Origin: a virus
Virus record (IMG/VR): IMGVR_UViG_3300046507_000773
Span: 1 to 64,000 of that record
DNA: 64,000 bases
Strand: one strand, 5' to 3'
Positions 29,665-41,703 of this stretch are shown piece by piece; positions within the stretch are counted from its first letter, which is position 1, and each line of letters opens with the position of its first letter. A program made the position numbers and the translations under genes. Below the pieces are notes generated by a model, which was given only the letters and a program-made list of their open reading frames with translations, had not been told where the DNA came from and made no database searches.

Positions 29665-30546
29665 ATGATTAAGAGCGATAAGTGGATCAAGTCCAAGTGC
29701 ATGTTGCCCTTGGCGGTTGCGCATTACATGGTGCGTGGTTCGGCCTTCGATGGTCCGTTCCGAAAGCACGAATTTATCTACGGCGATGCGACCACCGACA
29801 TCGACGCGGAGTTCGACAAAATCGTCAACCGTGTTTCGCAGGAGAACAACGTCATCAGCGGTTCGACGCAACTGGAATACGTTGGCGACATCCAGGTCAA
29901 CGACTTCCAGCCGATGATCGAACCTTTCGTGCCGACGCAAATCCGGACTGCTGGCCATGACCGACATGTCCGCATGCTGGCGATGCCGCGCAATACGCCG
30001 CAAGAAATGCTGGCCCGCACGCTCCTGGATTTCGATGGCGACGACGAATTCGAAAAGCGTAAGATCATCTCGCGTGGTCTGACGAGCTTCGGTTACGATG
30101 TGACGCTGGCTGAAGAAGCTGCAATCTTCACCAACGTCAACTGCGCCGTCATCGATCCGCTGAACTTTACGGAAGACACGCTGCAGCGCGTCATTGCGAA
30201 AGACGGCTACTTCCTCATGCCGCCCAACAGCTACCTGCTGGGTTACACGAAGGAGTACTTCCGCATGCCGCGTAATGTCATTGCCGTCGCGCTGGGCAAG
30301 TCGACTTACGCTCGTGCCGGCGCCATCGTGAACGTCACACCGATCGAACCGGGCTTTGAAGGTACCGTCGTCATCGAGATCGCCAACGCGACCAGCCTGC
30401 CGATGAAGGTCTACGCCAACCAGGGTATCGCACAGTTCCTCTTCTTCGAATCCGACGAAGACTGTGAAACCTCCTACGCTGACCGTAATGGTGGCGAAGG
30501 TGGCAAGTACCAGGGCCAACGCGGCCTGGTGACTCCGCGGGGCTAA
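29665..30546 (+). CDS. dcd: dCTP deaminase-like protein with N-terminal extension
   Basis: Dcd converts dCTP to dUTP, feeding dUMP to thymidylate synthase. Residues ~125-293 carry the family blocks: '[11 protein letters not shown]', '[12 protein letters not shown]', '[20 protein letters not shown]' with S213/R217, '[13 protein letters not shown]' with E238 as the probable catalytic Glu, and the nucleotide-binding tail '[17 protein letters not shown]'. The ~120-residue N-terminal extension is not part of the usual ~190-aa enzyme. A dUTPase-type activity is possible, as the families share the fold. Confidence 0.85.
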
Positions 30547-40693: not shown

Positions 40694-40749
40694 TTCAATT
40701 AAGGCCTCATTCCCACAGTGGGGCAACTATCTAGGAAGGATAAAAAGAA

Positions 40750-41703
40750 ATGACTCTCGTAGTTTTCAAGAACGGAATTCTCGCCACCGATTCGCGCCGC
40801 ACGCACGTGTGTTCCAGAACCCACTCGAACAAGTGTCCTTACTGCGAAAAGCCCGCTGTCTCGGTAAAGGACGATGCGGACAAACTTTTCGTCGTTCGAA
40901 AGAAAGGTTCCATCAAGTTTCGTAACGTCACCATTCTCGCGTACGCGTGTGCTGGCGATGTCGAGATGATTAACCGCATTAAAGGGGTCCTTCGTCTGCA
41001 CGATGATCTCGAAGCGGTGTACAAGAGCTACCTCGCTATTCATGGTACGCATACCAAGAACGAGCGCACCTGCACTGTCATGCTCATCGGCGTGGAACAC
41101 AACTTCATCGTTCGCATCCCCGAACAAGGCAGTCTGGATGTGAAGGTTTTCGAGAAGGACAAGTTCCTCGCCATCGGTTCCGGCACGCAGGGGGCACGCT
41201 GGATCAATAAGCTCATGCCTGAAGCATGGGCACCGCTCATTATCAACATGGTGATGGAGGACGACATTGGCGTTGGCGGTACGATCTCGTACGTGGATCT
41301 GAATGAAGAGATAGAGGAAGGCAGTCTGCGTCCTCCAGTCATGCTTCATGTCCCGAACGATCCGAAAGCCATGATTGAACGCGCCAACAAGGTCTTCAGC
41401 ATGGGTGAAGCTGTCGAAGCGGAAAATGAAGTGGTCAAGGTTCGCAAGGAAGCAGGTTATCCTGAAGTCTGGGATTTGCCGATCTCCGACCTGGGGCTGA
41501 AAGTGCATACGCTCAACAACTTGATGACTGAAGGCGGCATTACCCATGTCGCTGAACTCATCATGTTCACGCCGCAAACGCTCCTGAAGATCCCCAAGAT
41601 CGGCAAGGTGGCACTGCAAGAAGTCCACGCCCGCCTGAAAGATCGTAAGCTCACCCTGGGCACCGATACCAACAGCTGGCCGAATCACAAGAAGGCAAAG
41701 TAA
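40750..41703 (+). CDS. fusion of a proteasome-like Ntn-hydrolase domain and an RNAP alpha-CTD-like domain
   Basis: The N-terminal ~200 of 317 residues look like a proteasome-beta/HslV-type Ntn hydrolase: Thr2 exposed after Met removal ('TLVVFKNGILATDSRRT', with Asp14 in the ADxR-type motif), a Cys insert (C21-x7-C29-x2-C32), 'ILAYACAGD', 'FLAIGSGTQGARW' and 'DDIGVGGTISYVDL'. Residues 241-308 ('DLPISDLGLKVHTLNNL' ... 'LLKIPKIGKVALQEVHARL' ... 'KLTLG') align along their length with the E. coli RNA polymerase alpha C-terminal domain. Equivalents of Asn268, Gly296 and Glu302 are kept, while Arg265, Lys298 and Ser299 are His, Val and Ala. A transcription-targeting role is inferred. I know of no described protein with this pairing. 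Confidence 0.7.
   Translation: MTLVVFKNGILATDSRRTHVCSRTHSNKCPYCEKPAVSVKDDADKLFVVRKKGSIKFRNVTILAYACAGDVEMINRIKGVLRLHDDLEAVYKSYLAIHGTHTKNERTCTVMLIGVEHNFIVRIPEQGSLDVKVFEKDKFLAIGSGTQGARWINKLMPEAWAPLIINMVMEDDIGVGGTISYVDLNEEIEEGSLRPPVMLHVPNDPKAMIERANKVFSMGEAVEAENEVVKVRKEAGYPEVWDLPISDLGLKVHTLNNLMTEGGITHVAELIMFTPQTLLKIPKIGKVALQEVHARLKDRKLTLGTDTNSWPNHKKAK

Follow-up and report, generated by a model that had tools for sequence, protein, structure and literature searches.

Peptidases of the HslV (ClpQ) type, the phage family PHROG 1040 and the group I homologs AAH, PPH and RPC have a common Ntn fold, an N-terminal threonine and equivalents of proteasome Asp17, Lys33 and Gly47 (PMC8665760). As a general statement for this superfamily, the C-termini face outwards. 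PPH and RPC are devoid of helix H2, PPH comprises ~140 residues, and RPC carries a C-terminal extension that matches no known structure (PMC8665760). An HslV-like protein in a phage without an HslU partner has been described for Salmonella phage pSal-SNUABM-04 (PMC7823757).

Bacillus phage vB_BmeM-Goe8 encodes a protein, Goe8_c00050, annotated 'RNA polymerase subunit alpha', with an α C-terminal domain (α-CTD) at its C-terminus and no match to the α N-terminal domain. The gene for this 210-aa protein (L175:1560-2192, PF03118 4e-22) is one of the first in a Herelleviridae genome. T4 ADP-ribosylates the host α-CTD. Rac of the phiKMV-like phages is also α-CTD-centred, and triggers cleavage of the host α linker (PMC7552054).

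The protein analysed here is encoded by a phage genome assembled from metagenomic data (IMGVR_UViG_3300046507_000773, 226,810 bp), the first 64 kb of which constitute the window. It shares the Ntn fold, the N-terminal Thr and the three equivalent residues with the HslV-type peptidases, and is distinguished by a shortened first hairpin, a CxxC insertion and a C-terminal α-CTD. Unlike PPH and RPC, its Ntn domain of ~190 residues is predicted to contain both H1 and H2 (residues 71-82 and 87-97), and its C-terminal extension, in contrast to that of RPC, is an α-CTD. Goe8_c00050 resembles the fusion in its domain content at the C-terminus but has no peptidase, belongs to an unrelated phage family and keeps R265, N268, G296 and S299 intact. 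Whereas T4 modifies the host α-CTD and Rac causes host α to be cleaved, the present phage encodes its own copy of the domain.

The phage and the fusion gene

The major head protein, DnaB and virion proteins of the genome gave phiKZ-like matches; related phiKZ-like records and their loci are referred to below by G and L numbers. The genome encodes, at ~161.3-163.4 kb, a nuclear shell protein (phrog_4795, 7.9e-74), together with several pieces of multisubunit RNA polymerase (phrog_2987, phrog_3295, phrog_3015), among them split β/β′-like subunits; the phage is therefore of the nucleus-forming (phiKZ-like) jumbo type and brings its own enzymes for transcription. For the same reason, dependence on the host RNA polymerase as in T4 is the wrong frame. 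Among isolates, the head proteins of Burkholderia phage FLC9 (50%) and Xanthomonas phage LucasX (36%) are closest.

The fusion gene belongs to a run of small ORFs on the plus strand, with a dCTP deaminase gene (29665-30546) on one side and the DnaB and major head genes on the other.

40733..40739, plus strand: Shine-Dalgarno-like AGGAAGG, read from the sequence, which supports the ATG at 40750
40750..41703, plus strand: fusion gene, 317 aa, from ORF calls, in a single frame with no internal stop

Just 2 bp past its end begins a GTG-start ORF (window:41706-42044) of phrog_19233, a homolog of which (L162:5396-5806) is a few kb away from the HslV-like gene of G007. Elsewhere in the window, an ORF (window:32749-33327) shares 36% identity with residues 224-306 of the major head protein of the same phage and is a partial capsid paralogue.

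The N-terminal peptidase domain

The N-terminal half of the protein matched PHROG 1040 ('peptidase HslV family') with an E-value of 2.9e-10. Against the PDB, the full-length model gave proteasome subunits for each of its top 50 fold matches (E from 5e-7, TM ~0.5 to the target). When the HslV-like proteins of related phages were aligned, Met1, Asp14 and Gly69 were invariant, Thr2 and Lys45 nearly so, and the GSG motif was present. The features of the domain are as follows.

40750..41319, plus strand: proteasome/HslV-type Ntn-hydrolase domain, residues 1-190 (phrog_1040, the G017 ortholog, proteasome fold)
40753..40755, plus strand: Thr2, the nucleophile Thr1 once Met is removed (alignments of phage homologs)
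40789..40791, plus strand: Asp14, equivalent of proteasome Asp17 (invariant in phage homolog alignments)
40834..40845, plus strand: CxxC knuckle (Cys29, Cys32), an insertion ahead of the catalytic Lys (alignments)
40882..40884, plus strand: Lys45, equivalent of proteasome Lys33 (alignments)
40954..40956, plus strand: Gly69, the oxyanion-hole Gly (proteasome Gly47; invariant in alignments)

The serine expected at the Ser169 position is a Val, both in the fusion and in the G017 ortholog; the peptidase triad is therefore intact and one auxiliary residue is not. The fusion protein is probably an active peptidase.

The CxxC insertion is limited to the HslV-like proteins of the present phage, G003 (two copies), G015, G017 and G045. 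In this subset the knuckle adjoins the active site (window:40834-40845; L032, L172, L163, L135). It may be half of a zinc site that is completed by the neighbouring subunit.

Searches of the same five genomes for an HslU/ClpX-type AAA_2 ATPase (PF07724) gave no match, and the present genome contains no HslU-like P-loop ORF; use of a host HslU is possible. Since no such ATPase was found in these phages, another means of targeting the peptidase is plausible. HslV-like genes are present in 21 of the 50 phiKZ-like records. Many jumbo-phage HslV-like proteins (L134, L138-L141, L145, L035) have C-terminal tails that are coiled-coil or very basic, and variable C-terminal modules therefore seem common in this peptidase family.

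The C-terminal α-CTD

41470..41685, plus strand: RNA polymerase α-CTD, residues 241-312, with the helix-hairpin-helix LLKIPKIGKVALQEV and the tail LGTDTNSWPN (profile searches, phmmer, AlphaFold/Foldseek)

Pfam RNA_pol_A_CTD (PF03118) matched this region with E=5e-7 and 29.8 bits (33.2 bits in another search), against a curated cut-off of 23.8. NCBIfam RpoA models matched with E-values down to 1.4e-9, the match being confined to the C-terminal half of the fusion, and phmmer against PDB chains retrieved RNAP α chains from 2.8e-7. The structures of the peptidase and of the α-CTD were predicted in separate runs, the first of them on an alignment without three rows from named phage records. The AlphaFold model of the isolated α-CTD was built on ten phage sequences and reached a pLDDT of 94-95 in its core. 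The best folds found by Foldseek in the PDB with the α-CTD model were RNAP α-CTDs, with 3k4g_B at 0.9 Å rmsd and a TM of 0.85. In the full-length model the α-CTD part is of low confidence because no relatives were aligned to that part there.

A profile made from the phage copies only found RNAP α at 1e-22, best in proteobacteria, and RAD51C (8e-4) as the sole other match, a result that is partly circular because the phage copies had been found with the Pfam model. The Trp-Pro tail lies beyond the Pfam model and thus provides independent support for descent from α. It reads LGTDTNSWPN in the fusion, LGMKLPNWKRP, LGTDLKGWKPP and FSMNTQGWMPP in other phages, and LGMRLENWPP in E. coli. By sequence and predicted fold, residues 241-312 are a true RNA-polymerase α-CTD, alike over the whole domain. 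A generic helix-hairpin-helix identity was rejected, as HHH_5 scored 0.076 on the C-terminal half, the best folds were α-CTDs and the phage profile recovers RNAP α.

The initial annotation, made from the letters of the gene, had read it as an Ntn hydrolase with a free N-terminal Thr fused to an α-CTD. Profile matches to both halves, the RpoA models, the predicted proteasome and α-CTD folds, the Met-Thr start and the alignment of T2, D14, K45 and G69 with Thr1, Asp17, Lys33 and the oxyanion Gly all bear this out. Neither a C-terminal half matching generic helix-hairpin-helix families only nor an N-terminal half devoid of an Ntn fold was found.

The α N-terminal dimerisation domain is absent from the fusion, and HslV/proteasome matches take its place. 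A chimeric assembly with a host rpoA is unlikely: the identity of the α-CTD to RpoA is about one third, both halves of the gene have a GC content similar to that of the window, and the corresponding gene pair is adjacent in G003.

Fusion boundary and modular history

41356..41469, plus strand: C-terminal helix that the G017 ortholog also has (as far as residue ~222), and linker to the α-CTD (end of the G017 ortholog; model)

The closest homolog comes from G017 (322,570 bp); it aligns with residues 1-222 at 41% identity (E=4e-50) and stops where the α-CTD part of the fusion begins. The full-length model has a long helix at residues 205-235. G017 also has a separate tandem α-CTD gene (L156:9623-10567), ~100 kb from the peptidase ortholog. 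In G003, 35 bp separate a CxxC-type HslV gene (L032:5874-6545) from a downstream tandem α-CTD gene of 245 aa (L032:6580-7317), and another HslV gene lies 1.7 kb further on. In both G003 and the present genome, the HslV/α-CTD unit has the dCTP deaminase gene on one side and DnaB on the other. The fused architecture is near certain.

The two modules are thus found separate, adjacent and fused, which suggests a functional link, the adjacent and fused states being seen in one genome each. The α-CTD and HslV genes are far apart in G015, G017 and G042, and the link therefore rests on two genomes. A CxxC-type HslV and an α-CTD occur together in four of five genomes (Fisher p=0.001, without control for phylogeny, for which independent tree pairs are too few). 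No ortholog of the full fusion was found in IMG/VR or prokaryote genomes by single-sequence or pair searches, which as pattern scans miss distant relatives. The fusion is known from one metagenomic contig.

The phage α-CTD family

ORFs resembling the α-CTD occur in seven of the 50 phiKZ-like records: G001 (two genes), G003, G015, G016, G017, G042 and, more weakly, G051. The trait is patchy on the head-protein tree, with at least 5 changes. FLC9 and LucasX have HslV-like genes and gave no α-CTD match. Among isolated phages, the only matches to the α-CTD proteins were rpoA itself, Goe8 and short records without annotation. We found no description of phage α-CTD proteins in the open-access literature, and those of the phiKZ-like phages are apparently an undescribed family. 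Both domains of the fusion are already known; their combination and, save for the single-gene annotation in Goe8, the phage α-CTD family turned up neither in that literature nor among annotated phage records, and it is in these two that the novelty resides.

The two α-CTD-like ORFs of G001 (L033:7995-8405, L033:9089-9526) are small, have a helical N-terminal part and are separated by two small ORFs; one of them ends in LGMKLPNWKRP like proteobacterial RpoA and has lost the GKKS of the helix-hairpin-helix. In G016 (L155:9872-10621) and G042 (L158:9752-10540) the α-CTD-like gene is convergent with a DNA polymerase gene (phrog_3011). This conserved position suggests a replication- or genome-linked role.

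Contact residues and proposed function of the fused α-CTD

We consider the protein to be a proteasome-type (HslV-like) N-terminal-threonine peptidase with a bacterial α-CTD as docking module, and give this reading a probability of about 0.45. In its favour are the α-CTD identity, the Ntn fold with its conserved catalytic residues, the modular history of the two parts, their co-occurrence and the lack of any HslU-type match. For the contact surfaces of the α-CTD we take the DNA, activator and sigma assignments of E. coli α positions as established knowledge. Of five DNA contacts, the fusion keeps N268 and G296; R265, K298 and S299 are replaced by H253, V287 and A288, as the initial annotation had correctly noted. 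K297 is also kept. Among the sigma and activator contacts, E261G, E286P, V287Q and R317D are replacements, and T285, D259 and G315 are kept. Of 11 further phage copies, 7 retain R265, 8 N268 and 8 G296, as opposed to 0 for V287, 2 for R317 and 1 for E261; mean retention is 4.3/11 for DNA contacts versus 2.3/11 for activator/sigma contacts. On this pattern the family as a whole seems closer to a DNA binder than to an activator mimic; the fused copy has lost part of both surfaces.

The α-CTD could accordingly act as a tether that binds the AT-rich minor groove, as at UP elements, and so fastens the peptidase to the nucleoid of the host or to the phage genome. The retention of R265, N268 and G296 above the protein contacts and the proximity of α-CTD genes to the DNA polymerase gene in G016 and G042 favour this reading, as does the preservation of R265 in one copy of the tandem proteins of G003 (L032:6580-7317) and G017 (L156:9623-10567), the other copy having lost it. 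However, few positions were counted, N268 and G296 may be structural, and the fused copy itself carries R265H, K298V and S299A. We regard such a tether as unlikely.

Polymerases of the phiKZ type lack α, and split β/β′-like subunits are encoded here, so that the family might supply phage promoters or transcription factors of the phage with the α-CTD-like contact that is missing from the phage polymerase. Seven of 50 related phages have such proteins, but these showed no linkage to polymerase genes, and 43 of the 50 records (some incomplete) are without an α-CTD match, which makes a core polymerase factor unlikely; the reading as a whole is improbable.

From the loss of DNA contacts the initial annotation had preferred a protein-interaction decoy. 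Such a decoy would mimic host α and sequester host activators or sigma, with the peptidase part secondary. The fold and core are indeed those of an α-CTD, and phages do attack the host domain, as in the Rac-induced cleavage (PMC7552054). This preference is not supported, since the 287 and 261 determinants of CRP-type activator and sigma contact are lost as well, with E286 and R317, while most sister copies keep the DNA-contact core; moreover, the phage is equipped with RNA polymerases of its own. Activator contacts vary between bacterial lineages, so their loss is not decisive but lowers the likelihood of the decoy, which we find hardly probable. Finally, an incidental joining of neighbouring genes without shared role, the α-CTD decaying, would agree with its occurrence in one genome and the replaced DNA- and protein-contact residues, but is very improbable given the intact core, Trp-Pro tail and frame and the confidently predicted fold.

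If the α-CTD is a docking module, the fusion protein would, after removal of Met, form a ring as its homologs do, the C-termini facing outwards, and one particle would therefore display several α-CTDs. These would keep the peptidase at targets associated with DNA or transcription, candidates being the host nucleoid, host transcription factors and the phage's own expression machinery, and the docked peptidase would trim or remove proteins locally during takeover. With R265, K298 and S299 lost, tight monomeric DNA binding is unlikely, and docking would proceed via avidity or another surface. Delivery of the peptidase to promoters or transcription-associated targets is possible; the initial annotation had named promoters or activators. 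Against the docking module stand the confinement of the fusion to a single contig, the Val at the Ser169 position, the alteration of every known functional surface of the α-CTD, and an HslV/α-CTD link that rests on two genomes, with too few phylogeny-controlled pairs for significance.

A proteasome-type peptidase and a part of the bacterial transcription apparatus are joined here in a single polypeptide, in phages that use their own polymerases. The recurring α-CTD-like family, single or tandem, poses the question of what role an α-CTD has where the phage polymerase has no α subunit. Nucleus-forming jumbo phages may, quite tentatively, have captured bacterial α-CTDs as addressing modules, which in this case would steer a compartmental, proteasome-like peptidase to transcription- or DNA-bound targets without an unfoldase. 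If the α-CTD is such an address, the fusion would represent ATPase-independent targeted proteolysis by a virus.
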